A stretch of DNA of 64,000 nt from Styela clava. Taxonomy: Eukaryota > Chordata > Ascidiacea > Stolidobranchia > Styelidae. Of this stretch, positions 6,139 through 34,762 are shown one piece after another; the stretch's first letter is position 1; each line of letters opens with the position of its first letter. The notes beneath the pieces are model-generated. The model saw only the letters and a program-made list of their open reading frames with translations, had not been told where the DNA came from and ran no database searches. The position numbers and the translations under genes are program-made. The stretch is from assembly GCF_964204865.1 (NCBI RefSeq), contig NC_135252.1, positions 6,469,383-6,533,382 of the forward strand, in the 5' to 3' direction.

Positions 6139-8396
6139 TCTAGACATACCTTCTCTCTTTCCTGTACCCATGCTACTGAAAAGAAACGATATCAATGTTT
6201 TACTATAATACGGTGTCGATCTATATTTATTAGCGGGGGTCTCCATGATCTGTTTTGGCTATTTAAAACCCAAGCACAAGCAATGAAGTACCAATCACAG
6301 TCATAAGCAAACCTGGAAAATATCATATTACTCATAACAAAACGAGTCTACTACTTGTTGTCTCGAGCGAGACATCGAAACTCGGGTACTTGGAATTTCC
6401 CGACCAGGCTTTAATCCAGGCTTTGTTTGAAGTTAAGCAGAACTGCTATGAGTTTGAAAATTGAATACGTAATCTATCGAACCTTTTGAACTAAATCAAA
6501 CTACAATGAAGAACCTTGTTTTGATTTGCAGTCACTATTGAATTGAAACAAAACGAGGAGTAGAATCAAGCAGGTGATAAAATGTAATATTTATTACAAA
6601 TTATTAGTTGAGTGAAACTCACTTTAATATTAGCTCCTGATATAAACCTAATTATCCACCCCTTCATAACCAGTGACTTTATTCCAAGTTTCCTCTTCTT
6701 GACCTATCCAGATCCTTGTAATTTGTTCAATTCAGTCTGCAAACGAGAATCGCCTAAATTATATATAAACGATTATATTGTCTACAGTCTCTACACTCCG
6801 AGTCTCATAGAATCCGGATAGCAACTAAGATAGGATATTGAAGAGAGAATAAATTATAAAGTCAACATAAGTTCTGTTTGTGTAACTAACTCAAACAAAA
6901 AAACTGGACACTCCAGTTTGATGACATGTACATAAAATTACTGGATCGATCGAGTTTGGCAATGAAAATCCGATTCATATGCTTCATGCTGTACGACATT
7001 TTATGCACAATATTACTGAAGCAGACCTGATGAGTGTACGAAACCAGTTTTGTCTGACTTCAGGACCAACTCAGAAATTGCGAATTGTATCGTGGGACAA
7101 TAGTGTAACTGTATAACGTAGAAAGGTCAATTTTTGGAGAAGAATTCAATATAATGCGATCATTTCGACACGTTTGGTTTATACGTTTCATACAATTTTT
7201 TATTTAACGACATATTTGGACGAGTCGGCGTTACGAAAACAATCTACGTGCTAGCAATCTTTTATAAATGTCACTCATCGCTTTCCGTTAAGTTTATTAA
7301 TATTAAGTTGTTTGTCAACGTTTTTTGGTGCCTATGTTTGGCCCCATTTGGCTGGAGGGCGTCAGATATTTAAATCTAGCTACAAATACTTACTCAGCTG
7401 ATTTTCGATTTTGTAATGACAATAGCATATTATCCTACTCACGTATTACTTTCTCCATTGTCACTGGATAACACTTAAAAACCGTTGAACAGTTATTGAA
7501 AATAACCCATAATTTTGAAATTGATCGTACGTAATTGATAACTGTTTTATAAGCTTGCTTGGTATTTAATAGAATAAATAAATTGACGCCGTTGACTGAT
7601 TTCCTATTAACGTACGAAAATAAGATGTCACATCAATGATAAATTATAATTACCGCAGTTACATTAGTTATTAGTTAATATGTTACTAACGACTAAGATA
7701 ATACTGACATTTTATTTAAATTTTACAATATTTGCCAGTTGATTGTATGGATAGAACTTATCGTGTCTATCCAACTCATCAAACATAGCAGTGCTAACGC
7801 GAATTATATATGGCTGAATTCACGTTCACGTTTCTAGTTTGCAGTCACGTGTGATTTGTAACGGCGTTGTGATTGCAAAATTTGTTTGGTTTGTACTGTT
7901 TTTCAATCTAGAATATGAAATCAATCTCTGGCATTACGAGCCAAATGAGGTATTCAGAGACTATAGCCAATATTATTCCTCAACAACAGATAGAATGTAT
8001 AATCATCTCGTGCCAATGTTTGATAAACGAACCACATAGTTTTCTACGTAGTAAAGAAAATCGGTATTTGTGCGTACCTGAGTGTCATATGAAATTGTAC
8101 TTTTTTAGAAGACGATAAACATTCCTGTTAATTGTATGCATGTTCAAAAATGAGTCTATATACACAAAGAAATGTTGTTGTACCATCAAATATAAGAAAA
8201 AGTATCGAAGCTGATAAAAAACAAGAGTGCATCCCAACAAACACAGTTGAAAGTTTTGGTTGACTGGTCCATATATTTCTTTTCATAAATAAGCTGTCCA
8301 ACACGCCAGTACGCAAGCACCGAATAAGTGAAATTCGTCCATGTCACGCCAGACGTTACAGTAATTAATTATCAACTGACAATGTACGTTATTTCA
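6139..8396. other. Intergenic, nothing recognised
   Basis: AT-rich sequence with only short chance open frames on both strands. I saw no conserved domain, tRNA or clear repeat boundary. Confidence 0.4.
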
Positions 8397-8709
8397 AAAC
8401 AAAGAGAAACGGTATGAGACAAACGTACGGATGTATCGCTTTATAGTAATTAATCTTAATGTCGAATCAAGCTGGATGATGTAGCAGTTACAGGATGCAG
8501 TTTCTTCTTGTTTTTGTGATGCTATATTGCAAATATTTTTTTTTTCAACGAGGAATACTGCATAAATAGTCCACGTCTATTTGGCGCAGAGCATATGTGT
8601 AAGTGCTGTACTTGCGAGATGTACTTCGATTTTCTTATCACTTAAGCGTTCGCGCAAGAAAGTGAACGTACTGTGTATCTCTTATGCGCACGCAAGGTTG
8701 TTGAATCTT

Positions 8710-8767: not shown

Positions 8768-9033
8768 ATAAAATGATCATGTAGCTAGCTATAATTTTTT
8801 TTGCAAACCCATGCGCGTTGTGTCATACTAGTTGATAATTTTATTGGCTGGCGCAATAACCAAAAAATAAAACGTCACAGATGCAAACCTCTAGATTTCA
8901 ACCGATTAAGTTTTCACCAATTGAGTTACCAATTTACCTGTTGTCAAACTGTCAACTGATGGCAACACACCACTAACAATTAGCATTGTTAGATTTTCAG
9001 TTCCTAATAATTAAGAGACTATTACTAGATAAA

Positions 9034-10148
9034 ATGAAAATCTCAGTTATTATCTTATTAGTCGTCTGTGTGACATCATCGCATGCCTTTACGTTAGATT
9101 TCCTCAGAGCTCGTCTTTCTTCTATGGTGAACTCAGCAAAAAAATGTTACGTCGGAGAAGATGAAAAATACAAGAGCACTAAATGCAAGATCGACGGAGT
9201 GAGTACATTATTATTGAAAATTGCCTTAAAACATTTTCCGGACATTTCGATATCAAACTTCAGGTACTTGAAGAAACAAAAGGCCCCAGAACTTACTTTT
9301 ACTTTGTCCCATCAGACCCATATTTAACCCAAAACTTTGCTATTTTTTTATAATTTAGGAGAGGACCTTTTTTTTGGAAATTCTTCCAGGTGTCCGAATA
9401 TTCAAGTATTGCCATCATGTCCAATTATATGCTTAAAACCGGAATCGATCAAAGACTATAATTGGATTGATGTGTTACTCAATAAACTTGTCTGCGACCT
9501 CAATGCGATTAAAAATGCGAACAGAATCTCGAGCTAATCATTGAAAAGCAACCCAAGCTGTAAACTCAACTTTATTAATAATTGCTGTAAGATTTATTAG
9601 TTAGAAATTAACACAAATGCACCAAACTATTTTTTCAGTCAGCTGCATGCGTAACGAAACTACTTTTTTCCGCCGATCAAGACCAGTCAGCAATAGTCAC
9701 AAAATCTTGTATGGAAAAAAACGAATGCATGCAACTTTCGGATAAAAACAAGGAATTGTGTCCTAATGATGAGTCTGCAGAAGGAGTAAGTTGAGCAATA
9801 AAACGCAAAATTAAAACTTTATGAAACCATAAGTGGTTTATGGCTGCAAGTGGGCTAGCTTCGTGGAGGCTGAACATGGCCTAGTCCTAGTGTAAGCCTA
9901 AGCCCGATCTTATTATTGATTTTCAGCCCTACGACAGCGAAACTGGTGATTGCTAACGAGTTTTGCAATTTTTCGCTTTTCTAAGAAATGAATACAGTGC
10001 GAAACAGTATGCTTAACTGTAGATGTTTAGTATATTCTTACTCTAACATACGACATCATTTTTACAGGAAAGAGTGTGCTACTACTGCTGTTTTACCGAT
10101 GATTGTAATCAAGAAATAAAAATCAAAATTGTTTCCAAAGACGATTAG
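9034..10148 (+). CDS. Secreted LU-domain (Ly6/uPAR-like) protein A, complete, 3 exons
   Basis: Exons are 9034-9198, 9639-9785 and 10068-10148, all phase 0, giving 130 aa. Residues 1-18 form a signal peptide (MKISVIILLVVCVTSS). The mature part has ten cysteines at 38, 51, 59, 79, 85, 96, 108, 111, 112 and 117. It ends with the family's C-terminal signature CYYCCFTDDCN, where the CC, the last Cys and the Asn are diagnostic. LU domains are three-finger disulfide folds found in secreted or GPI-linked receptors, ligands and channel modulators. There is no hydrophobic tail for a GPI signal, so it is predicted to be soluble and extracellular. The ATG at 9034 is chosen because it begins the signal peptide. 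A 3' acceptor (GATTTTCAG) lies 33 nt upstream. It is a tandem paralogue of gene B, with 41 of 49 residues identical in exon 2. Fold assignment is good; the ligand or role is unknown. Confidence 0.9.
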
Positions 10149-11417
10149 AACACTTTATGATATATTTTTGTTGACAACATTTGTTTATATTACATTCACA
10201 CTTGTTAGGGGCATTTCTTTATGTACAACGGCGCGTGGAAGCGCTAATGAGTTTTATAGTTTTTTTTAGCTTAGAATTCTGCATATATTAATAAAAAAAA
10301 ATGTCACTATGAACTGCAAACAAAAATGGGAAATTTTAAGATGTTTGCACAATAATTGATTACCTTGAATATCTTATATGATGAATTCTGATTGTGTATT
10401 TTCTATGATTAGTGATCAAGTAAGTTGTAGATGTACCGATCAACTGTGTTTTATATATTAATAAATATATATATAAAAAAAGAATTCTGCATGTTTCGTC
10501 ATTGCCTAATTTAACTGTTTCTAAATGTGATGAAGCACTACAAGTTTTTTTCTCATGTTTTTGCATGTTTATTGTGTACTTTTATCAATCAATCATAAAT
10601 GCAAAAAAGCAATTACAATATTAAATGTCCGAAAAGAATATTTGTCTCATGCTTCTCAGTTTTGAAAACAGAGTGAATAGTAATCAATCGGCAGTCACCA
10701 TTATGTCTAGCATAACTAACCAGCGGGTGGGGTCCCAGAGTCGGATCGCGGTTACGCGTGTGGTATCGTAGCAGGGGTTTTATCTACAAGATTATAAACA
10801 ACATTTTGCCGATAATACAGCCTCGACACCGGTTGTTCAATAGATTTATACAATATCTATAACAAGAAAGTGGCACGTTTGTATATAACTAGTGCTGCCC
10901 CATTCACAATAAAAACGAGTTCTGAAGCAACGCACGTCATAGTAACCAACTCTAAATTACTGATTTTTTTCGAATTAGGGGAAACAATTTTAATGACTGA
11001 CTTATATTGCTAGTATCTAATTATGCAATAAATACCTTATCTGTACACTGGATGTGGCGTTTGCACAAAGATCACAATATGTAGGATAGATTGGAAGGTA
11101 GAGCGACTTGGCGACAGCCGCTTTCTTGTGAATTATGAAGGAGGCAATCGCAACCAAAAAAAGATGTACACTTGCAGTAGTATTCGGTTGTTTACTGTCA
11201 CAACATCGCCATGCACGTACTTAAATTACACATGCTTAAATCAAATTTATACAACCTAATTAACATTTTCAAATATTCATGTAAACCATTTACATCGCCG
11301 TAGTTTTCAGAGACAGTTCGTTTCCGATCGGCAGTTGATGCTGCACTAGGTGAGGTTCATCTATTTCATAATAGGCGACAGACTACTTAATTCTCAAATA
11401 GCAAGTTAACTACTTTT
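10149..11417. other. Spacer between the LU duplicates, nothing recognised
   Basis: AT-rich, with a few homopolymer runs. No exon with the LU cysteine pattern and no transposon termini were seen. Confidence 0.4.
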
Positions 11418-13740
11418 AAAACAAAGAGTAGCAATATGAGACAAACTTACGGATGCATCGTTCAGATAGTAATTATTCATGTCAAATCAACTAAAACTCA
11501 GATGATTTCATTGTCGGTTGGTGTAGTTACAGGATGCAGTGTTTCTTGTTGTGCTGCATGGTGTTCTATTGCATATATGTACTGCATTGCACTATTTTTT
11601 TAATGATAAATAAAGCATAAATAGTCTACGTAAATTATATCAAGAGCAGAGGTACGGATGCTACTCTTGCAGAGGTACGGGTGCTGCCGGTTTCGATTAA
11701 ACGTATACACTTTGTATAAATGTCACGCGCTACCGGAATTAAAATCGCTTGTTGAAAAAGCGCTACAACGAGATTGGTATATAGAAATTTCAGATACAGT
11801 GAGATTAGTTGAAACAACATTGCTTGTCCATTTTTTTTTTTTATAAATTCTTTGTGGATATGGTGAGGTGAACGCAAACCAAGCTTTTTGTCCAGGAAAA
11901 GAGCCATCGAAATATGCAAGAACCTTAAGAAAAAGCAGCATTATATTGCTCATAGCACCGACAAAAATCCATTCTCGACATCATTTGTCCAAGTTGAATT
12001 TGATTCCTAATGCCAGACTAAAACCTGATTTGCAACTTAGGGAGATAACTTATCATGATTATAATTCAGTAATGCCCTCGACTGCCCTTTGCTTCCTTGT
12101 AATAAACAGTAGAGTATTTCTTATAACAAATTCTTTGTTTTAGGGGTTATTTCGAAGTAACTAGATCGTGATTTCAATTCGACAGCACGAAGTAGAAACA
12201 AATAATTCAAATACGGCAATTATTCCCCCATGTGACCTATCGATTCCAAACATCGATTGATATTGTACCAATTGTGTTACCGATTTACTCGCTATCGAAT
12301 CGTAAGTGAATTATAATGACAGCGCACCAGTAACAATTAGTAATATTGTATTTCCAGTTTTCAATAATTAAAAGAATATTGCTGGATGAAATGAAAATCT
12401 TCGTTATTATTTTAGTCGTCTGCGTGACATCATCTCAGGCCTTCACGTTATATTTCCTCAGAACGCGTCTCTCATCTATGGTGAACTCATCAAAAAAATG
12501 TTACGTCGGAAAAAATGACAAATATATGAGTGATTCATGCGAAATTGACGGAGTGAGTATATTGTTATTTGAAATTGCTTTGATACAATTTTTATTTTTT
12601 ATCTAACACATCACATATATCACATTAACATCACATCTAACACACACAGCGTTTTGCCAAATTCTTGTCGTTATTTGTTAAAAAAATGCTAATAGACTGT
12701 TCGATTTCAAACCTTTAATATTTAAACATGGATTGGGTCCCTTGAACGCAAATAGTTTTCTTTTTTTATGGTACACGACATTTTATCCAAACTTTACTTT
12801 ATTTTTAAATTGAAGAGGCATACTTTTCAATCCGTATTGCTCGGTAGTCTAAGTTCTTACCGTACCGGCACGTATGGACAAACGTCGTGTCCGTGTAATT
12901 CAAGTATTGCTCGCATGTCCAATTATATGTTTATAACCGCTGGCAATAATAGGCTGGGTGAACTATTCAAAAAAAAACTAATTTTGCCATCTATGAGAAT
13001 AAAACTACGAAAGATAGAAACTCGAATGGAATGTACCTATTTTTAATAATGGCTATGAAATTTATTAGTTAAAAATGAACCAAACTTTTTTGCAGTTAGC
13101 TGCATGCGTAACGAAGCTACTTTTGCCCGTTGATCAAGACCAATCAGCAATAGTCACAAAATCGTGTATGGAGAAAAACGAGTGCATGGAACTCTCGAAT
13201 AAAAACAATGAATTGTGTCTTAATGATGAATCCGCAGAAGGAGTGAGTTTATAATAAATAAAACGCAAAATTTAAGGGTGTTAAGCAATGAGTGGTTGAC
13301 AGTTGTTAGTGGGATAGCCCAATGCGGGCTGAACATGGCGAGGCCTGAATCCAACTCTGATTATTGATTCTGAGGCAAAATACAGCACGAATTGATGATT
13401 GTCAACTTTTTATTATCTGCCATAGTCTTCATTCTGAGTTTGGTTAATAATAATAAAACATAGTACGGGAAAATAGGCTCAAGTGTAAGCGTGTGGTCTA
13501 TTTACTACTGTATCATAGAATGTTATTCATCAGTGATATCACAAATTTCGAAAAGTTTAGTTTTCTAATGTCTTTTTTTTTCGAGTGTTATAATTCTATC
13601 ATAAACTATGTATCATACTTTTTACAGGAAAGTGTGTGTTACTACTGCTGTTATACCGATGATTGTAATCAAGAGATACAAATCAATATTATTCCCAAAA
13701 GTACTAGCGATTGAAGATTCAAAATATATTTTTGTATATT
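11418..13740 (+). repeat. Segmental tandem duplication, copy 2 (carries LU gene B)
   Basis: Counterpart of 8397-10160. The upstream part (GAGACAAACTTACGGATG, then GTTACAGGATGCAGT), the 33-nt leader before the ATG, intron segments and all three exons are recognisably the same. Positions of corresponding exons drift by 3357, 3457 and 3560 bp. Confidence 0.75.
12391..13714 (+). CDS. Secreted LU-domain (Ly6/uPAR-like) protein B, complete, 3 exons
   Basis: Exons are 12391-12552, 13096-13242 and 13628-13714, all phase 0, giving 131 aa. The signal peptide is MKIFVIILVVCVTSSQA. The ten-cysteine framework matches gene A, and the C-terminal motif is CYYCCYTDDCN. It has lost one residue in the signal peptide and gained a few at the C terminus (ending PKSTSD) relative to gene A. 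The leader also begins 33 nt before the ATG, after a TATTTCCAG acceptor. Both copies have open reading frames and conserved splice sites, so both look functional. Soluble secretion is inferred from the signal peptide and the absence of a hydrophobic C-terminal tail. The specific function is unknown. Confidence 0.9.
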
Positions 13741-14663
13741 TCATGCTAACACAATTTGTTTAAATGAAAATTTCATACCCCATGACATATCATCTTGCAT
13801 TATCGTATATTCCCACGTTTTCAACAATGCTTAGTCATTTATTCGTTACTGCATTTTCCAGTTTTTATTTTTATTTAGTTACGAATTCATCTACTTTTGT
13901 TGTTCGCTTGTTGGAAACATTATTGTAACAAATGAAAATTGTGTCTCGTTTCACTTTATAATACTGTTGCTAAATGGGAGGAATCATTTTTATTTGTACT
14001 ACGAAAATCAAAAAATCTTTCCTATGTTTTATATGTCTATTGCGTACTTTAATCAACCAATGATAAATAGTAAGAAGCAATTATACTATTAAATGTAATG
14101 CTTTTGCTAGCATATGTCTAGCATAACGTACTAATAGATAGGGATTACAGTATTTTGTGGAGTTACAGTCTGGACAGTACAGTTGAGAAGCAACATACCG
14201 TACAATTAACAATACAATACTGTTTACGAAACAACGGCAAATATTTTTCTAAGCAAAATTCATCCTAGCAATTATCCTTGTGTTTTTTCATCATCTGAAA
14301 GTCACAATACAACTAACGATATATATACTTGATAAAATCTGATCAATCGCTATGCAAGATATAAAAATTGGTTTCATGTTGCATTAACATTGAACAACGT
14401 TGATGTCAAATCTTAAAGCTCAATTGAGCGTCTGAATTCAATCTGCCAGACTTTAAACACTGAACGAGTGAGAACCTTTAGATTTTAGATCGAAAATATA
14501 TTTCTCTGTCAACTTCCTATTTGCGGTTTAAAATAATGGAATCAACAAGCAATTTTATTTTATTTTGATGTTTTATTACACTCCAACATACAATGCTCGC
14601 TTTTTTATTTGATTTTTTTCTGCTGGAAAAAAATCTGAAGTGAAGTATCTTGCGAGTTGCAAC

Positions 14664-14878
14664 CTAGGCTAACCCTCTCTCTATTCTCTCAATGACATAG
14701 TTGTCGTTGTTGCAACCATCTGTGAAACAGCAATAGTTGCAGACTGTTCCCTAAAAAATAATATATTTATAATTTCATAAGAATGCACACGCTTCATTAT
14801 ATTAATGTTACATTAGACACAAAACTGCTTTCGAACTGTTGGTAAGCAAAACGCCGTTACAGCAAAGTTTAAAATTAC

Positions 14879-14910
<32 letters not shown>

Positions 14911-15854
14911 GCTTATCAGCAGGCATAGCATATATGACGCTGACACATTCTAAAAATGGTAGATTAAAAAGAAGCAAAAGTTTATATTCATTTTGTTGCA
15001 TTTTTGTTTTATTTTTTTCAACATTGCACTAATTTCCTAATAATTTTTGTTTGGCATCAGTGCTGACATAACGAAATGATCATATAATGTGATTTGCTCA
15101 ACAATTACACCCGGGTTTGAATAAATATTATCTGAAATTCTGCTGTTACACCCAAATCTTACATCGATTGCAGTTTCTCCTGCAGTTTTGCACGCTTCCA
15201 CATTTTGGCTGCCCAATTCTAGGCATTCTGATACCGGCATGCACTGACTTTCAACCTCAGCATTTTCGTGTAGGCCCGTATATCCGTTCGTAAATGTAAT
15301 CTTGGTGTGGCACGCCATCTAAAAATATATGACAAATATTCGGTATTTTTATATGTTTAGACTAGAACATCAACGTCAGCTACAATTTATACAAACTGAT
15401 CAAAATTTTCAATGAATGTTGTTATTTCTGATTTTCCAAATAATTAATCATTTTTAATGATAATAAGTCGAAATTTAAAATTGGATTTAGAAAAAAAAAT
15501 TTGTTAAAATATTTTTGAAAAATCTGATGCCTATCTAATTTCAAATATGAACATGGACATAATAATGAACAATATAACTGCCATAAATTATGACCTAATT
15601 CCAATTTACTAAAAATCAGAAAAGTTAATAAAATAAGATTTATTAGAACGAGCATGTATGGGCAAGACACATACAATAATTCTGTGACCTTGAAATGAAG
15701 GAAGTTAACTCACAATCTGACGCGTGGAACATTGAAATCGAAATGATTTCTCAGAGAAGCGCAAGTAACATTTAGGTGATGTCGTTATTGCCGGCCATTC
15801 AGCAGCCAACGTCAATGATACGAAGGTGTATAGAAAAATCGCTGCAATTTTCAT
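14664..15854 (-). CDS. Secreted LU-domain (Ly6/uPAR-like) protein C, complete, 3 exons
   Basis: Exons in mRNA order are 15714-15854, 15163-15318 and 14664-14750, phase 0 throughout, giving 127 aa. The signal peptide is MKIAAIFLYTFVSLTLA. Ten cysteines fall at residues 29, 42, 50, 73, 79, 90, 103, 106, 107 and 112, closing with CNYCCFTDGCN. It has the same three-exon layout as A and B but very different residues between cysteines, so it is an old paralogue. It is convergent with gene B, about 950 bp from it. There is no C-terminal hydrophobic segment, so it is predicted soluble. The middle exon alone could be mistaken for a single-exon gene because it opens with ATG directly after the acceptor; the flanking exons supply the signal peptide and the CC signature. 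Confidence 0.88.
14883..14908. repeat. (TA)n microsatellite
   Basis: A pure TA dinucleotide tract in intron 2 of LU gene C. Confidence 0.9.
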
Positions 15855-17610
15855 ATTTATGCCTTGTAACTTCAAATAAATCGACTATGCTAATGATATC
15901 ACCTTTAATAAAATATAAATAATATATAAATTGGTAATGTCATCGTATATATGCAAGAAATATGTCATAAACTTCAAGATAATATAATCGAATCTCGAAC
16001 TTGAAAACATCGGTCCCAAACAATGATAAAATACCTGGCGAACAAATCAGCATCCACAATACGAGTCAAACATTAAGAAAATGCTCCATTTTTTTTATAG
16101 AATTCTGTCATAGTTTTGTTTCACGACTTTTTGTTTGCGGTACCTTATATTATACTACAATTGCTTGAACTAACTGCCGTTGACGTATACACATTATTAT
16201 ACCATTAAGAAAGCAGAAAAACCAAGTGAGTTTGATTATGTTAAATTTTTGAAGTAATTCAGCAATAATGGGCGCCAAATTCAAGACCGTTTTTTCAAAT
16301 AGGAAAGTTATGTTTCTAGGAAAATCTACTCGCTTATACCAGCCTAGAGTCCAAGAAAGTACGCTGGAAGAACAATTTCCGCACATGAGTTTTATTCATT
16401 TTTTCTGACGGAAAGGTAAACCAAACCGATATTATTACTCGTTATTTTAGTCCGATAAGGTTTTAAAATGCCAATGCTTTTCACTAACTCTTAGCTTCGC
16501 ACCATATCAACAGGTCCCACTACAAATTCAATAATCTTTATGAAAAGGGTCAACTATCATATTTCGTACTTGACGTCTCCCTTGGGTGTAGTGGAACTAA
16601 TGAAATCTTGTGTACAGAACGTGCAAATTTATTGAATCCAGTATTGAAATGTTTCCGCTGCAGACAGCGTCATGCATTACTTAAATGCATAAATATAAAT
16701 CATCCTGACTGCATCCCACAGGAAACTACATTTTTTGATCGAAGTAAGCACCGTCGAAATCAGTAGGCTATATCATATTTCGGAGTTTTTATTATAAATC
16801 ATGAAAACCAATTTTGAAATTTGTTATTAGCAATTTGTTATATTGTCTTGCGTGGGTTTATTTTAAATAGCAATGTAACGTAAAGCTCAATATATAAATC
16901 AAACTACGCGACCAAACTAAATTCAACTACGAGAATGACACCTCGATAGCGTGTCAACGTACAGATTCAAATTAATTTATTTCCTGTTGCTCTGGCTTTT
17001 AAAGCCTTTTTAGCTCAAGCGGAAATCGTATAAACAAGCTATTGAATTTATTTCATTGAATTCGGCTTTTTGATATTTCCGTCCCAGTCTGAATCTCTAA
17101 GGCAAAGTTGTATCCATTTGAATCCTTCTCAAGTTTCCCCCGTATAGGAAATGACTAAATATTTCTGCGAACAACTCTCCGGGAATTTAGCAGCAATTGA
17201 GTTCACAGCAAGTACGACTTTGTATAGAGTGCATCACTTTTACCTTAGAAGCAGGTTTAAATTATTAAAATTAAAATATAAAAGATGTGCTATTCATGAT
17301 ATTTTTGGGCTTGCTTTTACACACTATTTAAAACATATTTTAAGGGGAAGCAAGTTAGGACTAACTAGAAAAACCAGGAATCCAAATTAATTCGTCCATT
17401 GATTTATTTTGTATGCGCTATTTTCTTAAATTTTCAAATTTAAACTGCGCTGTAGTCACTTTTCCGCCTGCTTACTGAAACCTTGTATGACTAAAATAAA
17501 TTTCATCACCATATCTAATGTATTTCAAAGATAGTTTGTCACAAGATACAGAATTAGTCTAACACACATTCATAGAGAACTCGTCCCAATCGTGCCTTTT
17601 ATTCCCAAGA
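15855..17610. other. Spacer between LU genes C and E, nothing recognised
   Basis: It should include the upstream region of gene C and the 3' flank of gene E. No further LU exon or transposon terminus was found. Short open frames near 16150-16386 (-) and 17151-17390 (+) match nothing I know. Confidence 0.4.
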
Positions 17611-20600
17611 TTATTTTTCTTTCTTTCCCAACTTTTCTTGCAATATTTTCTCGAGGGCAACATTGTCGTTGCAATTGCTTGTGTTGCAGCAATAATGGCA
17701 TATTTGCACCTGTAATAATAATTTGGATCGATATTTCGATGCTGTATATATTAGGTTTTAACCACTCAGATCACTGGGCGATTGGTACAAACGCCTAAGC
17801 AAGGACACACTGAATCTACGACGCTATGGAGTTAAGAGTCGGGTATAGTTTTCGTGTTTTGGCTTAAGATTGAAATCTAAATTCAAATATTTAAAATTTG
17901 TTCCTAACTTTATCAATCCATGCTAATTCATCAATTTTATTAGGAATGTCATATACGTTTCCCAATATTAAAAGTTTTAGAAATTCAAATAAAAAAAATG
18001 TAGGCCCAATTTACGCCGGGGCATGATACAGAAAAAATAATAGGCTACAACTCAAACCAGAAAATGTTCGATTTGCTTGGGACTCCATATCAGATGCTAT
18101 TCTTGGATTATACAATCTCTTATTTATTGAGCAAATATTGCTGTACTGAGGAAAAATCAGAAAAAGAGCACACTGATTTTCAATGGTATCGATGCGTTGA
18201 AATATGCCACTTACTTGATCTGTGTTCAAGTGAATGCATTTTAACATGCATTTATAGTTTCAAGAAAAATTGTCTGGTGAATTTGATATAGTTGCATAGA
18301 GTTGAACTTTCTTGTATTTCTCAGAAAATATAGACTGACTGATTGGAATGAGAACGACTTTATGGAATCAAATTCGTAACCTGTTCTTAGTGTTTGAGTT
18401 GGGAAATTCGAACGTTTTATTTCAAGAAACGGGAGCAACAGTTGAGTATTGTGACCCTATTCATTAACTTCCGCTTCATTGTAATTAATACAATTATATT
18501 AGCAGTGGTACTTCGAAGTTAGTAGAATTTTCTATATATAGAAACAATAAAACACTCGGGCAGACGGTATAAATTACAAGAAGTAGAAAAGAACACTCCA
18601 ACCCAATTTGTTTATTTTTATTCGAGAAATATTGTATTGTGACTAAATGTTTAATGCTTACTACGGCTATATTTACTCAGAAATTGCAAGATCAAGCAGT
18701 GCTTGAAGCTGTGAACTGTGATACAGCACTATATTTTACTACGCTATAAGGGGTGCTCCTGAAGTATGCGAACCAGGTTGCAGGTACCAGGTTAGGGTTA
18801 TGCCATAATGTTATTTTCATTTCCCGTAGTTTAGTTCTATTGCAAGTTCTGGGACTAGCCAAGTGGCTCCCGTAGTATTTGTACCTGATATTAGGGCCTA
18901 ACCCTAACCTTGTACACATACTACGTTTGGTGTCCGCCATCTTGGTACGCATACTTCAGGAGTATCCTATATGGACATACTGTGGGTTATATTGTCCTCT
19001 GAAGGCGTTGGATATTTCAGTCCTGAGGGAATTTAGTACCAGCCCACGTTTGTCTGTGCTAGTAAAAAGATAAAGATCACCGTTTCTGTAATGATAACAA
19101 TACTGCCTAACCGAGTTTTATCACCTGATTTCTTTTTGCTTGAGGTCCCCTACATTGTATTCTATTTTGACTTTGTAGATTCTTGCATGGTTCTTCTTCC
19201 TTGCATTCTCTCATCACATGAACCAAATCATGATTGTAAACAATCTTCGTCAAGCAATTTCCCTAATAAAATATGCAAATAATAAACCTTTGATTTTGTT
19301 CTAATTCGTATTGTTCTAATCTAATTTTTTAGTTCATTCGACCGAGATTCACTCTCAATTTTTTTTTTTTTCATTTCTACTAGAAGGCTTGCAAAATTGC
19401 TTTAATTTGAATGATCGTTTTTGTACTAAATAAGCTTGGACATAAAAATCTTGTTTCTCTGTTGGATGAAACATGGCGGACTGGTGTGGCTGGTTTTATG
19501 GGATGGGATCTTATAGTAACACCTAGGCCCAGGTCATGTGACCCCGTGACGCGCTTGCCACGTTTCGGCTTTTGTGTTTTACAAAATTAGGACACTCGGC
19601 TGAGGGATAGCGCGCGACACGCACCCCGACTGCGACTACAAGCTTTTGTCTCAACTTTGAGTTAAGTTATTTTACCGTTTTATTGCATCTTCATATCGAA
19701 TTTATTGTTATCATTTTAACTGAAGAATATAATACACAACCAAGATTTTACACGTTTTTAACTACTAGAGACTTGAAAGCGGACAGCTGAAAGGAAGCGC
19801 AGTCTCGACACGGAGAGTCTATGGGACCATAGCAACATACCCTACACATGATTCTGTGCATTTTTGTTGGATTTGTTTGCATGGACTGGCTTTAGCACCG
19901 ATGATATAATCCCTACAGGCTACACTATATGAGACATCATTGGTCCATATATTGGCAAAATAATCTCATACTAATCAAATGCCTATGATTGTGCTACCTG
20001 AATTTAGGCCTCAGACTGAGTTTCTGAGTTTAATCACGACCGAAGACACAGCGCCAAGATGCCATGACAAAATTCTGAGTGACATTTTTCTTTATAAATA
20101 TTGCCTCTAGCAGAACCAAAAATTGTTTCCGTGCAATATATTATGAATATTTAAATCAAAATACAAAAAATAAATGTTATTAAAACAGAAGCAAGATTTT
20201 TAACTTGAAGAAACCCTATTTTTGGCGAGTTGTAATCAGAAGACGTCAGTTTTTTTTCCCTCGAGTGTCATATCCATATTTTATAAATAATTGAAATCAA
20301 CTTTATACCTTTTGTGATGGACACCGAACTTCTTTAAAATTATCGTTTTCTCCAGTAAGACAAGTTTTGCTTCCAGAAATCGATTGCTGTAATCTTCCAG
20401 AAGCGAGAATAGCATTCACCAGACCGGCAAAAGCTGTTAAAAATGATTTGAACTAAATATTGCATATAGAGTCAAATTTGAATTTTATAGCATCTATTTA
20501 AAATATCGAAAAACGTCCAGTTGACGTTCAGTTTAAATTTTGATGGATTGAGTACAACGTTTTAAATCCTATACGATATAAAAATAACACAGTAGGAAAG

Positions 20601-20835
20601 AATTACAAGAGCTCACTATTGTTCTTAAAATGCCAAGTTGACGGTTGATAGTTCATATTTTAATTTAATAAATATGGTTCAAATTATTCCATCAATTGCT
20701 TTAATTATTCAACACATTATTTTTCGTTATGAACTTACAGGGTGCCGATGCTGCAGTAGCGTTGCCAGAAGTCTGTGCGCTGGTATGCCGCAAGAGAAAG
20801 AGAAAAGCTAAGGATAACCAAATATAGTTTGCCAT
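17611..20835 (-). CDS. Secreted LU-domain (Ly6/uPAR-like) protein E, complete, 4 exons
   Basis: Exons in mRNA order are 20739-20835, 20309-20433, 19125-19262 and 17611-17709 (phases 1, 0, 0), giving 152 aa. The signal peptide is about 1-20 (MANYIWLSLAFLFLLRHTSA). Ten cysteines fall at 57, 70, 77, 94, 100, 111, 124, 127, 128 and 133, ending with CHYCCNTSNCN and a lysine-rich tail (KLGKKEK). It is longer than its paralogues because of about 30 residues between the signal peptide and the first cysteine. The signal peptide sits on its own exon, joined by a phase-1 intron, as in gene D and unlike A, B and C. An acceptor (TTTTTTCAG) lies 22 nt before the ATG. Introns 2 and 3 carry mobile sequence. 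Function unknown. Confidence 0.88.
18750..18968. mobile_element. Palindromic MITE, 'accaagatggcg' family, copy 1
   Basis: The ends are inverted (GGTGCTCCTGAAGTATGCG at the left; CGCATACTTCAGGAGTATCC at the right). CCAGGTTAGGGTTATG-type segments occur inside. It lies in intron 3 of LU gene E. Related copies are at 23543-23795, 30903-31010 and 42455-42558. Confidence 0.8.
19480..20080. other. Locally GC-richer block in intron 2 of LU gene E
   Basis: From about 19490 to 19840 the composition is clearly less AT-rich than the surroundings (for example GTGACGCGCTTGCCACG and GATAGCGCGCGACACGCACC). No open frame or inverted termini were found. Probably an old mobile-element insertion, but this is inference from composition only. 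Confidence 0.3.
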
Positions 20836-22769
20836 CACGATGATCAAAATTATTAAACTGAAAAAATAGTAAACTGTGACATTTTATTCTATAGATATAC
20901 AGTGCATTTGACTTTCGTTTGGCTACAATTTAATTCCGCTTCTGCCACACTCTTATTTCCTAGTAAATCGGTGTGAAAGATTAATTTGGTGAAAACTAGC
21001 AAGCATAACATAAACTACAACTCAACATAACTAATAGATGCTCATGCACTTAGCGAATGGCATTCAAGGCCATAGCCTCGGTCTGGATTACTGGTTAGTT
21101 CAGGATCTCTCGCTTAACCACATTTTCAATCATGTTAATATGATTGTATATGTTTAGCAGTAAATATTACTTTTTCCAATGCAGATAAACTATACAGTCT
21201 AACTGAATGTCTAATGAAAGTCTAGGGAATCATTACGTAAAACGTATGGCACTTCACAACAATTAAAAGTAAAAGTATAGTCATCTTTTGACAACTTGGA
21301 ATCCAGGTCTCAAATTTGCACAAGTCAGATCTACCATCATTTACTGCACAACGATTATATTAAATTAAACTTGAACCTTGTGGAACCATGTGAACCTTAT
21401 TGAAAGAGCTGACTTGTGAGATCTGGAAATTCTTGACCCTTTAAGTACCCTTCACGTAAAAGCAAAAATATGAACAATAAAGGTCTGCCATTCTTGAATA
21501 GATAATATTTACATTCTCTTCGTGAAATGAAAATAGCTTGACATTTTGAAATAATTAACTTTTGCGTTAGGGAAGAATTATCTACTGCAAAACGACCCTG
21601 ACAAAATTGGAAAATGACTCAATCTGTCAGAAATAATATACACGACTATTCAAAGGGTAATTTACTTTATAAAAATGTGATAATTTTACCTGCATTTTGT
21701 TATAGAAAACTCGTTTATTTTTTAAGTACACACAATACAATAAGCGTCCCTTTTAGTATAAAACATATTTCCTCAGGCTATATTTATAAACTTATATAAT
21801 CTTAAGGTTATCTTATCTTATAATATCGATGTCAATATTGAAATGCTGCTAAACTAACTTATCCTTTATTGCAGCCTTAACAACGACCTCATTTCCAATT
21901 TACTTCAAAGCCTCTCATTCTGACCGTTCTCGGCTGCATTGTTTGTAATAAAAATCTTATCTGATCTGATATCATTTTGCCGAAGGTGTTTAAATTATAG
22001 TTCAAATGATGGCACGTCACTTGTCGTTGACATTTGTTTAACCGGTTTTGAAACAAACGAAGCGCATGAGTCATTTTCGTTAGCATAATTTGTTACCAGT
22101 TTATTTCACCTTCTAGTAACTAGTTTAATACCTAATATTTTCTATATATTCTAGTTTAATACCTAATATTTTCTTATATATTCTATCTTCCTATATAATG
22201 TATATCATCTGCTAGTATTTCGGACTTGAGACTTACTTGTACTTGTAATAACCTCATCTGTTTGGGGGATATGTTTTTTAACTTCATTTTGTATTTACTT
22301 TGTCCCACATTGCTTTAAAAATAAAAGAAACAAATGTATATATGAATGTTTTCTCAAAGTCGGTCACAAAACTGACTGCGAGTTGAATAAATCAGCCCAT
22401 GAGAAACACCGACAACTACCAATGTCATGAAATCAACTGGGATGCTGAGAGATATTCAATCAACGTTTTCAGTTATTGCAAAATTCGAGTTTTATTCAGT
22501 GTGCAAAATTGCTAAAAAGTAAAGCAAAATTTCATAATAAAACATTACGACAAGTTTTGCTGATAAGAACTCGAATCGGCCTTGATTACTTGTTGATTAC
22601 TAAAGAATGATAAATGTATTTTTAACTTCATCTATGACACCGAGATAAAGAATGCTTATAATATCAACTGATTCTACTGAAGGTAATTTGATATTAGCTC
22701 CACATTAGATTACAAGGGAACTACTTCAATTGAAGCAACACATGTTGATAATCGTCCATCTGCTCCATC
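20836..22769. other. Spacer between LU genes E and D, nothing recognised
   Basis: It contains the upstream region of gene E. A short direct repeat (CTAGTTTAATACCTAATATT, twice) lies near 22118-22190. No additional exon found. Confidence 0.4.
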
Positions 22770-23069
22770 CTGTGTTTCTCAACCTGGGTTCGATCGACTA
22801 ATAAAATGCAACTCAAGTTTACGGACAAGTCGGAGATGAGAAGTGAGAGTGCTTATATGTTATATCCATATAAAATTTTACTAAGTGATAAATTTGTGAA
22901 AATAAAATATTTCATTGCAGAGTTTTGCTAAAATGATCAACATTCGTTCTGGACAATTCTCAACATGGCGCTGAGTCATATACGATTCTTCTACCTCTGT
23001 ATAGGGTTTGACGGGAGCGCGCAGAAGATCGAAGGGGTTCGGCAGGCTAGCAAAGGTTGAGAACCACTG
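22770..23069. mobile_element. 300-bp hAT (Charlie-like) MITE
   Basis: The left end CTGTGTTTCTCAACCTGG and the right end AAGGTTGAGAACCACTG are imperfect inverted repeats of the widespread CAGTGGTTCTCAACC terminus. The right half has the usual GGGTTCGGCAGGC stretch. The flanking 8-bp duplication is no longer visible, so the insertion is old. Confidence 0.75.
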
Positions 23070-23323
23070 TATTTTTGAAACCTTGAATTGAGCCCGAGCC
23101 AGCTGGCAAAATCAACAACGACGTGCTACAGAGCCACATCATGGAAATCTTCCACTTCAAAACATAACAAAATAGGTATGCAAACATATTTATTAAATAA
23201 ACAAATGTTATGCCAGTTTATATCAAAAATAGAATAAAAATCACTATTTATTCGACTAAATGAATGTTCAAAAAGTCCCTTATATCGGTAAGCAGATAAC
23301 TTGCAGCCATTATAATTTAAAAT

Positions 23324-25129
23324 CTATTCAAGAAATGTGGCAACAGTGGATGGTTCTCTGTATTGTCCGGCGATAAGCAGCAAGGTATCCAGATCGTATT
23401 CGTTGTTACAGAGATCACTTTCACAGCAAAAGTGGCAGACGCGAACCTACAAAAATGAAAATTTAATATTATATTTGTGCAAAAATAATAAAGATAGGTT
23501 TTAAAATTTATATATATATTTTCGCACATTTTAGGGTAGATTTTTAGGTAGTATGTGAACCAAGATGGCGGACACCGGAACGTAGTATATGTACCAAGAT
23601 GGCGGACACCGGAACGTAGTATGTGTACCAGGTTAGTAGGGCAGTACAAATACTACGGGAGTCACTTGACTAGTCTCTGAAATCGTAGTAGAACTAAAAT
23701 ATGGAAAATTGGATAAAATTATGGCCTAACCCTAACCTGTTACGCACACTATGTTCCGGTATCCGCCATCTTGGTTCATATACTACAGGAGTACCGATTT
23801 TTATATAGGCATACGCTAAATCGAAATGCGCTATCAAAGTTAAAATTCCATTTATCTTTCTCTTAGTTGAGCGGGGTGGGTTTGTATCGGCAAAGACCTG
23901 ATGCATGCTAAGAATCGAATCCTCGTTCTATAATCTTTATCAAGAAACATGTTAGAGTGCTGGTCTGATTTGGCATTTCCGATCATTTTGTGAATAAACT
24001 ATTTTAATATTAACAAGAACACTTCTTGAATAAACTTTGCGTGGATAGATCTTAGCTTGTGTTACGTTATTGCTTTACAATGTATCACATTACACATCAT
24101 ATGTGATCATTCTGTCTCGCTTATTTATATCGAGATAATTAGTTTTATTCAACAATACATTACTCACATTGTTTCTGAAGGCTTCATCACCAATGCAGTT
24201 CTGTATGTTGATATCTTGGTTATTCATGCAAGCTTTATCTTGTTTGCAGGAATTGGTGATTTGAATGTTGCCATTCTCTATTCTGATAGCGGTTTGACAC
24301 ATTTGCTGTAAAAATTAGCATGAAATTGATAAAGTGAAATCTAATTGGAGTTTTTATCATTTTAAATAATATGAAGACATTTCCAACTGTATATTTACAG
24401 AACGCATGTATAAGACATCCTTCCAGTTAACTTTGCATGAAAAACAGAGCGGAATTTATCAGTGTTAAGAACCTATATGCTAATTGCGTGTTGCCTAATA
24501 TATGAGACGGCAAATAATATCGCACACCGACACAATTTCTGAAATTTACAATTGATTTTTTTATCACGATTTAATGATCACCAATTTTATTAGTATTATC
24601 TAATTCTAAATCATGATTATTAGCGTTATCTTACCTCGCTTTCAGGGCAGATATCCATGGTGTAATTTCCATTTTCTCCAACATAGCAAACCCTGCCGTT
24701 TACATCGGTATCAAACAAGACATCTGAAAAAGTGAAAAAAACACAATGTATTATACTTAAGAATAAAACAATTATAAAACACAATACAAAACTTTCTCTC
24801 AATTGAATTAAAATTATTTGAATATTATATTTTATGTAAAATTATATAAGAATATTAAATTTTATATAAGTTATTCTATCTCATTTCAGTTCATCCCGAA
24901 CCGATTCATCAGATATAGGTTACATAGTTATTTTTCCATTCTAAAAACTTGTTTTTGTTTTAGAAACCGTATAAAGGCATTTGAAATTGTTAGTTATACA
25001 ATAATATTGCTTCTAGGCTAGCAATTCCACTGAACGCAATTTGATAACGACTTTCTCACCGGTTTGTCTTTTCACAATTCTAGCTTGGATGCAGACGACG
25101 AAAAGTGCTACGATAATTGCTGTCTTCAT
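23324..25129 (-). CDS. Secreted LU-domain (Ly6/uPAR-like) protein D, complete, 4 exons
   Basis: Exons in mRNA order are 25060-25129, 24635-24723, 24168-24305 and 23324-23446 (phases 1, 0, 0), giving 139 aa. The signal peptide is MKTAIIVALFVVCIQA, followed by a possible dibasic processing site (VKRQ). Ten mature cysteines fall at 36, 49, 56, 73, 79, 90, 103, 106, 107 and 112, with the closing motif CHFCCESDLCNN and a 25-residue tail. There is one N-glycosylation sequon (NYT, residues 43-45). It shares the four-exon layout and the 138-nt third exon with gene E, so D and E form one subgroup. The C-terminal tail contains a short LLLIA patch but no GPI-type hydrophobic end, so it is predicted soluble. 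Intron 3 carries a MITE. Function unknown. Confidence 0.88.
23543..23795. mobile_element. Palindromic MITE, 'accaagatggcg' family, copy 2
   Basis: The left part has a tandem duplication of a GTACCAAGATGGCGGACACC-like unit; the right end is CCGCCATCTTGGTTCATA then TACTACAGGAGTACC. It contains the AACCCTAACCTGTTACGC segment typical of the family. It lies in intron 3 of LU gene D. Confidence 0.8.
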
Positions 25130-32049: not shown

Positions 32050-32251
32050 TTAAGTCACAACTTTAGGTGTATTTTTCCGACATCGGTACCGTACCCACAT
32101 GTACTTTTCAGTCCCAACGCATGGATCACCAAACTTTTGGTTTGTTACTTTAAACGAGCATGTTATTTTGTCGTCACAGAACTCTTCTAATTCGTCCTCA
32201 CAATCACATACACACGAGGTCACTTGTAGACGGGTAGATTTAGGAGGGCAT
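32050..32251 (-). CDS. Terminal exon of a SUEL-type (rhamnose/galactose-binding) lectin-like gene, partial
   Basis: The exon opens after a TCTATTTTAG acceptor at 32252-32253 and runs to a TAA at 32050-32052. It encodes 66 residues plus one split codon. The SUEL lectin C-terminal half is clear: KITCSFKV, then KFGDPCVGTEKYMWVRYRC, where the FGDPC-GT-KY-V-Y-C pattern is diagnostic. SUEL domains are secreted carbohydrate-binding folds. The N-terminal half (CEG to YGR part) and any signal peptide must lie on upstream exons at higher coordinates, which I could not find between 32.3 and 34.7 kb. It may therefore be a fragment or pseudogene. It converges on the amidase gene, with only 241 bp between the two stop codons. 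Confidence 0.65.
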
Positions 32252-34762
32252 CTAAAATAGATGATTATTTTATTCAAAAAACTAAACATATACGAGATGT
32301 TATACTGTTGCAAAATGTCTTTTCCGTGCAATAAATTGAAATATTATGAGTTTAGTTTTGAAACATGAAATGGCGAGATGAAGGAGAAGTCCCACAAAAC
32401 CAAATATAATGGCATTCTGCAAAAACAAATTTAGTCGATTTTCATACCATTTGCGCACGTGACATAGTAAATTTACGGCTAGAAATATCTGGAATTGTGG
32501 GAAAGCATTGTAGTCAAAAGCTTTTTATTTTTCATATTGACATGTAAGAATTTGTGAATAGCCGCCCGATATTGGCGCAAGGTGGTGGGCTGGAAATCCA
32601 GTTCACAGCCAAGGCGCACATTGACCCACTTTTACGTTTGTATTATGGCCGTCAAAAAAGAAAATAAATATATTTTTAAAATGATTCAACAGCTATCTGC
32701 GAAACCATTAGGCAAACAATATGAGCTACTACGTATGTTTGTGAGCGCACGATGCTGTAGCATGGTCAAAAACGCGTTCTTCTGCTTTTACATTGTGACG
32801 TAACGGACTCGGGGGATTCGAGCCTTTGACCTATTACTCGGATTCGTCGAATCTCTGTAATGCCGGACTCGTCCCATCCCTAAATTTGCTCGCATTGTCT
32901 ATATGTTGAGCTTTGCATGTACGCATATATTGCCAACTTACTATATAAAAATGTAATTTTACAGGTTCCAAAAAATATATACGACATGTTATGATCATTA
33001 AAAACTCTCGAAAACTATCTGACATTTGCCATATCTCAACGTTTATATCGTATCATTCTGCGTTTATGCACTTTATAAACTAAAGACTGAATACACTAGT
33101 TCAACTATTCGGACATATACCAACTACACTAGCCTACATTGTGCCTGATCTTTAAGTCTTTTCGTCGTTATCTTACAAGTCTGGAGTGTCGAACGCAGTG
33201 ATTGAAATTTGTCGCCTCGTACAAATTTTTCCCTCCCGAAACCTGTGCAAACTTGGAACCTTCATAGTAAACAAATTCTACACAAACCTAGTTTTCAAGT
33301 GTTTTTTAAATGTTTGCTTAAGTTAAGAATTTCACAATTTGAAAAATTGTTTATTACGTCCTAATGTGTTTAAAACATCAATTTTGAAGGCACTTTGAAA
33401 AGGGACCTTACAAATGGAATACCCTGCAGGCCTCTTGTTGTCTGAGTCCACTCAGCCCGATAAGTATGTCCTACTTTAGTTTTCTTTTATTTGAGAATTA
33501 CTCTCTTGTTCTGTGAATTCTTTTGTTTTAGGAGTTTGAATTTAATCAACATTCTAATTCCTAATTGTTAAAATTCAGAAAATATAATAGTGCTCCGCTG
33601 TTTTGCCCTCGGGCCAGGATACGTTACATACGATAGGACGTTTTACACAAACATATAATTATTAGTGCAGAAAATTTTGGGGGGAATTATTTCAACCGTT
33701 AACCGGGTAGAATTAACCGGTTAACCGTTGCATGACATTCGACTACAAGGTATAGTCAAGGCGTGTTACGTCACAATGGTTTCAAAGCAATTTCGCGTGA
33801 TCTTGTCATGGTATCGCTTCGTGCTTCGGGCATATGGAGGTATTTTAGTAAAACAAATTCTGAAATTATTTGTTATTTATTAGACAAAATTTTTGGTGTT
33901 CGATGTACAACTTCTTTAAGATATCATAAAAAATAGCATCAGCTGCGATTAGAAGCTACCAGTTCCGTACGATGTGATACGTATTTACTATATGAGTGCG
34001 GCAGGAAATATTGTGAAACGTTCGTCGCTACTTTATGAAAATATATTTATGCTATTATTCCTGCGACAGAATGCGCACTTGTTGAATGACATTGACGCTT
34101 TTACAATAAAATCCTTAACCATGACCGGAAACTTGTTCTGAATTTGTCATTGTCAAATTTTCATATTCAGCAATACTAGTACTTCAATTATTTTTGATAA
34201 TTTCTCGATGATTACCAATTGAGTTAGTGATATTCTTTCGAATTAAACGCCACGGGAGATATATTCGCGATGAACTAATGATTTTTGAAAAAATCCTACC
34301 GTATAAAAGTAATTATTACTTGAGATGTCAGTTAGCGATCAAAATAAATCGTAACCGTTAACCATTCCCAGCCATAATAATTATACAGATAGCAGAATAA
34401 TAGCCACATGAAACAGAATAAACTGCTCCTATCTAATTGTAAGATTGTATGTCTGAGTTTCCATTCCCACTATATTCATATCTATATATGTGTATAATAC
34501 TCACTTTATCAGCCTTACATTAATCGATGGTTTTTGAACAGCATCAATATTCATTTTCCTTACAAACATCCTACAAAGTCCTTCGACCCCAAATATAAAA
34601 CACGAATCAACATATTTCATTAGCTTTCCATAGATTCCATAATATTATTTTTATATTACATCATTCAGAAATACGCTTACATCATTCAGAGTGCCCCGAA
34701 AAACAGGACCCATAAATTCTTAATTACTTCTACGAAAATATATTCAAAGAGTTTAAACTTCT
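32252..34762. other. No gene recognised; possible missing lectin exons
   Basis: No exon completing the SUEL domain was found. Around 33690-33740 there is a cluster of inverted GGTTAACC motifs (AACCGTTAACCGGG, AACCGGTTAACCG), and another AACCGTTAACC at about 34350, possibly marking an old mobile element. Confidence 0.35.

Follow-up and report, generated by a model that had tools for sequence, protein, structure and literature searches.

Five clustered genes for probable secreted LU proteins with LYPD6-like ancestry in the ascidian Styela clava

Five genes in a tandem cluster

A 64,000-nucleotide stretch of the Styela clava genome (C3:6469383-6533382, hereafter the window; the genome searched comprises 376.6 Mb in 379 contigs) carries a cluster of five genes, A to E. 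Judged from sequence, their products are probably secreted LU (Ly6/uPAR, three-finger) proteins with LYPD6-like ancestry. Gene models rebuilt from splice sites gave five complete genes at window positions 9034-25129, with A and B on the + strand and C, D and E on the - strand, exactly as the original prediction for this window had placed them. The ATG of gene A is at 9034 and that of gene E at 25129. Every intron is GT-AG; intron 1 of D and E is phase 1 and the remaining introns are phase 0. The predicted proteins are 130 (A), 131 (B), 127 (C), 152 (D) and 139 (E) residues long. The exons are listed below; where no content is named, the exon was placed by the gene model and its domain-exon profile.

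9034-9198 (+): gene A exon 1; ATG, GT donor, phase 0; signal peptide, N-terminal segment, first two domain cysteines, finger I
9639-9785 (+): gene A exon 2; C5, C6, C7 and the first extra finger III cysteine
10068-10148 (+): gene A exon 3; VCxxCCxxxxCN and stop
12391-12552 (+): gene B exon 1
13096-13242 (+): gene B exon 2
13628-13714 (+): gene B exon 3 and stop
15714-15854 (-): gene C exon 1; signal peptide, finger I
15163-15318 (-): gene C exon 2
14664-14750 (-): gene C exon 3 and stop
20739-20835 (-): gene D exon 1; signal peptide, followed by a phase-1 intron (gene model)
20309-20433 (-): gene D exon 2; finger I
19125-19262 (-): gene D exon 3
17611-17709 (-): gene D exon 4 and stop
25060-25129 (-): gene E exon 1; signal peptide, followed by a phase-1 intron (gene model)
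24635-24723 (-): gene E exon 2; finger I
24168-24305 (-): gene E exon 3
23324-23446 (-): gene E exon 4 and stop

No sixth family member or pseudo-exon was found in the window: 15 domain-exon profiles recovered their own 15 exons and nothing else below an expectation value (E-value) of 0.2. Since the profiles derive from these same exons, the search tests for further copies only. Five copies of the motif CxxCCxxxxCN are present in the window, and none of 100 dinucleotide shuffles contains it.

Protein architecture and the cysteine set

All five proteins have a strongly hydrophobic N-terminus (best 10-residue mean 2.4-3.9 on the Kyte-Doolittle scale), and none has a hydrophobic tail like those of glycosylphosphatidylinositol (GPI)-anchored proteins (C-terminal hydropathy at most 1.1 over 11 residues), in line with the original prediction. 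Both calls come from a simple hydropathy check and not from a trained predictor; on this basis A-E are read as secreted without a GPI anchor. In exon 1 of gene E (25060-25129) a dibasic KR noticed by eye soon after the signal-like stretch is a possible propeptide cleavage site.

Following the signal region, each of the five proteins has ten cysteines arranged as C-x12-C-x6/7-C-x16/19/22-C-x5-C-x10-C-x11/12-C-x2-CC-x4-CN. The terminal CC-x4-C followed by Asn is present in all five and in all ten aligned members of the two clusters described below. Apart from the cysteines, one Thr and two Asn are invariant in A-E. Identity outside the cysteines is 74% between A and B and 14-26% in the other nine pairs, and the earlier statement that little but the cysteines is common outside A/B was thus nearly right.

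In its canonical form the LU domain contains ten cysteines, which pair 1-5, 2-3, 4-6, 7-8 and 9-10, and an Asn follows the tenth (PMC6600238). A-E do not match this set: C2 and C3 of finger I are absent in all five, and finger III has two extra cysteines. Four of the five window genes have CxxG at finger I, and the extra finger III pair takes the form C...VCxxCC, as in LYPD6. The count of ten is therefore a coincidence, produced by one missing and one extra pair relative to the canonical set. The 2-3 bond has also been lost in accepted LU members, namely all snake toxins but those of the basal type, ACVR2 and BMPR2 (PMC6600238), so the absence of C2 and C3 does not exclude A-E from the superfamily.

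Profile evidence for LU membership

The assignment of A-E to the LU superfamily, on its LYPD6-like side, is probable given the profile comparisons, a shuffle control, a common phase-0 intron and an apparent intermediate, L021, in the same genome. The Pfam family LYPD6 (PF16975) was the best family by E-value, below cut-off, for three of the five proteins (A 0.0054, B 0.016, E 0.0019), and its best score among A-E was 18.8 bits against a curated cut-off of 31.5 bits. Other sub-threshold matches were to three-finger families (Activin_recp, UPAR_LY6, ecTbetaR2, Toxin_TOLIP) and to unrelated ones (FNIP, NusG_II); gene D matched only ET (E-value 2.9) and Toxin_TOLIP (E-value 5.4).

When a profile of the five sequences was searched against PDB up to an E-value of 10, all 17 distinct sequences found were three-finger proteins (E-values 0.24-5.6). 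With a ten-sequence profile all 30 matches were three-finger proteins, LYPD6 being the top match (E-value 0.1). The toxins, CD59, ALK1 and SLURP-1 among these matches are three-finger proteins. Gene E alone matched only LYPD6 (2/2, E-values 1.4-1.6), and gene A alone matched SLURP-1 and LYPD6 (3/3, best E-value 0.064).

Profile alignment gave E-values of 1.3e-5 for an LYPD6 fragment, 2.3e-5 for SLURP-1 and 3.9e-4 for CD59, against 0.43 for the single control (a lectin domain from the window); because the aligned fragments were picked from the PDB matches, these values are somewhat flattering. In shuffles of the target with the cysteines kept fixed, none of 60 reached the observed score for L021, LYPD6 or CD59 with either profile. 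The tightest case was LYPD6 with the ten-sequence profile (observed 32.9, best shuffle 29.3). The likeness to LU domains therefore exceeds cysteine spacing.

Relatives elsewhere in the genome

When E, D, C and a second-cluster protein served as queries, a second cluster emerged on the same chromosome (C3:13.000-13.097 Mb), about 6.5 Mb away; gene A as query matched only A and B. The second cluster has at least seven members of the same type, at 13.000, 13.077, 13.084, 13.088 and 13.096 Mb and, on the minus strand, at 13.064 and 13.066 Mb. About 35.5 kb in or beside C3:13.00-13.10 Mb was read, and this count is therefore a lower bound. Exon 2 and 3 boundaries were checked in the first five of these genes. 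The 13.096 Mb gene, with a finger I exon assigned by eye, is included in the ten-member alignment and left out of the tree; the two minus-strand genes are left out of the alignment, the tree and the intron counts. All ten cysteines and two Asn are common to the ten aligned members. The C2 position is Gly in nine of them and Arg in gene C, which becomes Gly in 11 of 12 when the minus-strand genes are added.

In three of the seven second-cluster members a strongly acidic open stretch precedes the LU domain (Asp or Glu at 12-14 of the last 40 positions). These stretches, at L069 (C3:13061501-13068500) and L052, are open-frame readings with provisional exon starts. By Asp/Glu count, window genes A-E have no such stretch ahead of the domain. 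Another locus in this region, L049 (C3:13081017-13081166), has VCHFCR in place of VCHFCC (CxxCR), with no exon 2 found nearby, and is probably a broken or decayed copy.

Eight dispersed LYPD6-like LU loci were also found, six of which show finger I (L011, L016, L018, L021, L022, L024). The C2 position is Cys in all six. L016 and L022 were joined across introns by eye. L012 and L019, which have no visible finger I exon, are left out of the dispersed alignment and the tree and do not enter the counts for finger I or introns; a ninth dispersed place (C9:5090060), L057 and L058 are left out of the locus comparisons; and weak matches (L034, L036, L037, L039, L040, L044-L047) entered the motif scan only. 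Several dispersed loci adjoin exons that, by eye and not by family search, resemble EGF, sushi or C-type lectin modules. A further CxxCCxxxxCN end occurs at L036, outside both clusters (CRHCCDMNYCN); after it comes a long open stretch rich in Pro and Thr.

The locus L021 (C3:0.29 Mb) combines CxxC, the extra finger III pair and CxxCC in one domain. It passes the cut-offs of UPAR_LY6 (29.2 against 24.8 bits) and Toxin_TOLIP (31.4 against 21.2 bits), and falls below that of LYPD6 (28.6 against 31.5 bits). Aligned with the two-cluster profile, L021 gave an E-value of 4.5e-10 and the six dispersed LYPD6-like domains together 1.6e-17.

At least two other LU clusters besides A-E exist in this genome. 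A UPAR_LY6 cluster at C16:14565893-14653566 holds nine of 15 matches to that family. Three of its matches (14578216, 14583996 and 14589776) have equal scores and lie exactly 5,780 bases apart, reflecting either a very recent duplication or an assembly artefact.

Intron positions, phylogeny and the strength of the assignment

A phase-0 intron lies two to three residues before C5 in all five window genes and in five of the six dispersed domains; in the remaining one, L022, the frame is continuous there. Among the five second-cluster genes checked, the acceptor of this intron was found in all five and the donor in four. At two other LU loci, L053 and L054, C1 to C7 lie within one exon. A further intron just before xxVCxxCC is present in all ten cluster genes checked and at that place in none of the six dispersed domains, three of which are single-exon in this region and three of which have an intron elsewhere (partly by eye). 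The clusters thus have one intron in common with LYPD6-like domains and one of their own.

The usual LU gene has three exons, with the LU exons flanked by phase-1 introns (PMC6600238). This layout is not found in A-E, where two phase-0 introns interrupt the domain; only D and E, each with four exons, have a phase-1 intron preceding it.

A five-sequence tree separated (A,B),C from D,E with local support of 0.88-0.92. A 17-sequence IQ-TREE phylogeny supported shallow groups only, namely one of the dispersed domains other than L021 at 94% and one of three second-cluster genes at 81%. In it the LYPD6 fragment was placed next to gene C at 41%, a position that is not interpreted. The phylogeny does not order the losses, as the deep nodes have no support and the window genes are not one clade; LYPD6-like descent and the direction of change are accordingly argued from cysteines, introns and profiles.

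Several results count against the LU, LYPD6-like assignment. None of the five proteins passes a Pfam curated cut-off, UPAR_LY6 and related models included, and gene C has no Pfam match at all. All of the PDB matches are weak. An LYPD6 orthologue was not established in the genome, the best match to that family, L021, being sub-cut-off. In the 17-sequence tree gene E falls beside the dispersed domains and gene D among the second-cluster genes (19-39%), and support for separating dispersed from cluster genes is 39%. The original prediction of a signal peptide plus a ten-cysteine LU domain ending in CC(x4)CN survives in its hydrophobic start, ten cysteines and CN end, but the cysteine set is non-canonical. 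The profile searches proposed with it did match three-finger proteins beyond the shuffles, but only weakly in PDB and never at a Pfam cut-off.

The missing Pfam assignment and the missing canonical CxxC would also fit an unrelated ten-cysteine fold that acquired its CCxxxxCN end by convergence. This is very improbable, as the cysteine-fixed shuffles never reached the observed scores, and the common pre-C5 intron and the intermediate L021 argue against it as well. An LU identity for A-E is therefore preferred. The failure of the tried Pfam LU models to reach cut-off on A-E means that such families may be undercounted.

Comparison with known three-finger proteins

In LYPD6 the third loop carries an additional disulfide (PMC6600238). 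Like LYPD6 and LYPD6B (PF16975), A-E have an extra finger III pair with CxxCC, and both extra cysteines align; the pair was identified by this alignment and its bonding is predicted. The distance from C7 to the first extra cysteine is ten residues in A-E and four in LYPD6. LYPD6 keeps the CxxC of finger I, which A-E lack. LYPD6 is GPI-tethered (PMC8494132), whereas A-E appear soluble by hydropathy.

In the ectodomains of ACVR2 and BMPR2 the 2-3 bond has disappeared and a further bond, comparable to the additional one in LYPD6, has arisen (PMC6600238), which is the same combination as in A-E. These are, however, transmembrane kinase receptors, whereas A-E consist of a lone soluble domain, and A-E match receptor models weakly (E-value 0.3 for Activin_recp, which covers types I and II, 0.043 for ecTbetaR2 and at least 0.45 for ALK1 chains). 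The combination reported for type II BMP/activin receptor ectodomains would here occur in a free-standing secreted protein.

With SLURP-1 (profile match 2.3e-5) and other secreted LU proteins A-E share a soluble, single-domain build, but SLURP-1 keeps the canonical ten cysteines (PMC6600238) and A-E do not. GPIHBP1 has a disordered acidic N-terminal part before its LU domain (PMC6600238, PMC4755760), which the three acidic second-cluster members resemble, without a GPI-like tail; the window genes lack the acidic stretch. This GPIHBP1-like layout is offered as a lead only. The starfish Lystars are likewise three-finger proteins of a non-vertebrate deuterostome, some of them found in body fluid; Lystar5, by contrast, is Lynx2-like and predicted to be GPI-anchored with six disulfides (PMC9410279).

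Among the open-access papers listed by the literature searches, no description of the A-E family was met and no tunicate LU cluster was found, except that PMC3737499 mentions Ciona three-finger proteins.

Proposed origin of the family

A-E probably descend from an LYPD6-like LU ancestor in which the C2-C3 disulfide of finger I was lost, C2 becoming Gly in most members, while the extra disulfide of finger III was retained. The lineage would have its own intron before the last exon, and tandem duplication would have multiplied the gene type into two clusters on one chromosome. By homology, the expected pairing is 1-5, 4-6, 7-8 and 9-10 plus the extra finger III pair. The result would be a set of soluble three-finger proteins in an invertebrate chordate, for which the apparent same-genome intermediate suggests that an LYPD6-like domain lost one disulfide and kept another. 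The family is well founded but fairly ordinary. Clusters of LU genes are common, and such genes often occur in small clusters (PMC6600238).

Duplication and selection in the A/B pair

A and B form a tandem duplicate that includes about 150 bases upstream of each ATG (blastn).

8887-10139 (+): A copy of the duplication, in pieces 8887-9237, 9390-9441, 9572-9880 and 10059-10139, against the B side at 12235-13699 (blastn, 76-90%)

A weaker further blastn piece joins 8392-8576 and 11414-11631 (67%). Within intron 1, a 53-base stretch (9390-9441 in A, 12887-12939 in B) is 85% identical while the surrounding intron does not align; it is possibly a regulatory element or a relic exon.

The dN/dS (non-synonymous to synonymous rate) ratio between A and B, the comparison suggested by the original prediction, is 0.27 (2,000 bootstraps, 95% interval 0.14-0.51), with 23.5 synonymous and 30.5 non-synonymous differences over 128 codons. 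Positive selection on A/B is thereby rejected in favour of purifying selection. One second-cluster pair has dN 0.23 with dS saturated over 70 codons. These two pairs are the ones measured, and pairwise tests of this kind would miss a few selected sites. The fast evolution expected for reproduction or defence is thus not seen in A/B, and the pattern is not that of an arms race. The original description of A-E as secreted, LU-related, clustered and divergent is upheld (secretion by hydropathy), but its step from clustering and divergence to reproduction, defence or receptor modulation is weak. A/B are under purifying selection, and LU clusters are common, in this genome as elsewhere.

Possible functions

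From the known behaviour of LU proteins only a class-level statement follows, namely that A-E may be soluble ligands or modulators of a surface receptor. Acting as SLURP-1 does, they would be released from the cell with a rigid disulfide core presenting three loops, and the loops would bind and tune a cell-surface receptor or an extracellular ligand. This receptor-modulating role is the most general option and the preferred one, and by analogy its chances seem about even.

In a narrower version A-E would be cholinergic neuromodulators that act on nicotinic receptors as soluble equivalents of LYPD6 and SLURP-1. Both of these rank among the closest profile matches, and LYPD6 modulates nicotinic receptors (PMC8494132). 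A cholinergic or Wnt co-receptor system like that of LYPD6 is a candidate for A-E (PMC8494132). With few residues conserved outside the cysteines, such a role is doubtful.

An immune or defence function in body fluid, comparable to that of the Lystars, is similarly unlikely. Lystars 1-4 are three-finger proteins from starfish coelomic fluid (PMC9410279), and a blood-cell surface system like theirs is a candidate for A-E (PMC9410279, PMC11595613). The predicted GPI anchor and six disulfides of Lystar5 (PMC9410279) count against it, and no positive selection was seen.

Distinctly unlikely is a reproductive role as gamete or seminal proteins in fertilisation or mate recognition, like Bouncer, SPACA4 and the salamander proteins PMF and SPF. 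Three-finger proteins have been repeatedly co-opted in this way after duplication and disulfide change (PMC8830517, PMC4029566; PMC7407461 cites Bouncer only), and A-E are divergent, clustered and secreted. Against it stand the purifying selection on A/B and a second-cluster pair at dN 0.23 with dS saturated.

The broadest proposal, a speculative one and quite improbable as a whole, is a tunicate-specific radiation of soluble LYPD6-derived three-finger proteins. It would comprise at least 12 genes in two clusters with a common loss of the finger I disulfide (CxxG in 11 of 12), serving as secreted recognition ligands or decoys (for gametes, individuals, or Wnt or TGF-beta type receptors), with the acidic-tailed members as a GPIHBP1-like carrier branch.

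Other features of the window and genome

A contig of 23.8 Mb carries a glycosyl hydrolase 6 (GH6) domain (35.4 bits, above the cut-off of 27), with an open frame bearing transmembrane-like stretches (by eye) nearby. Among animals, a fusion of GH6 to cellulose synthase is characteristic of tunicates, and the domain by itself suggests a tunicate genome with moderate confidence. None of 14 control genomes shows GH6, and the same genomes also show no UPAR_LY6, so this negative is no test of animals.

In the window, a 34-base tandem repeat of 2.4 copies lies at 23548-23630 (its unit includes CAAGATGGCGGACACCGGAAC); similar text, inverted, was seen by eye near 18900-18970 and 23740-23800, suggesting a dispersed repeat. 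The frame at 51417-51788 has no Pfam match at an E-value of 0.1. Four further frames or exons in the window were assigned to families.

32050-32343 (-): exon of a SUEL (D-galactoside/L-rhamnose-binding) lectin domain, scoring 34.1 bits (cut-off 31.4)
36617-37942 (-): transposase frame, open over 441 residues, in which DDE_1, HTH_Tnp_Tc5 and a Brinker-type DNA-binding domain each exceed the Pfam cut-off
44650-45039 (-): open frame similar to the beginning of the sodium:dicarboxylate (glutamate) symporter family (PF00375; 38.9 bits over positions 1-53 of the 387-position profile)
50113-51573 (-): 486-residue hAT transposon frame with DUF4371 and the hAT dimerisation domain above cut-off

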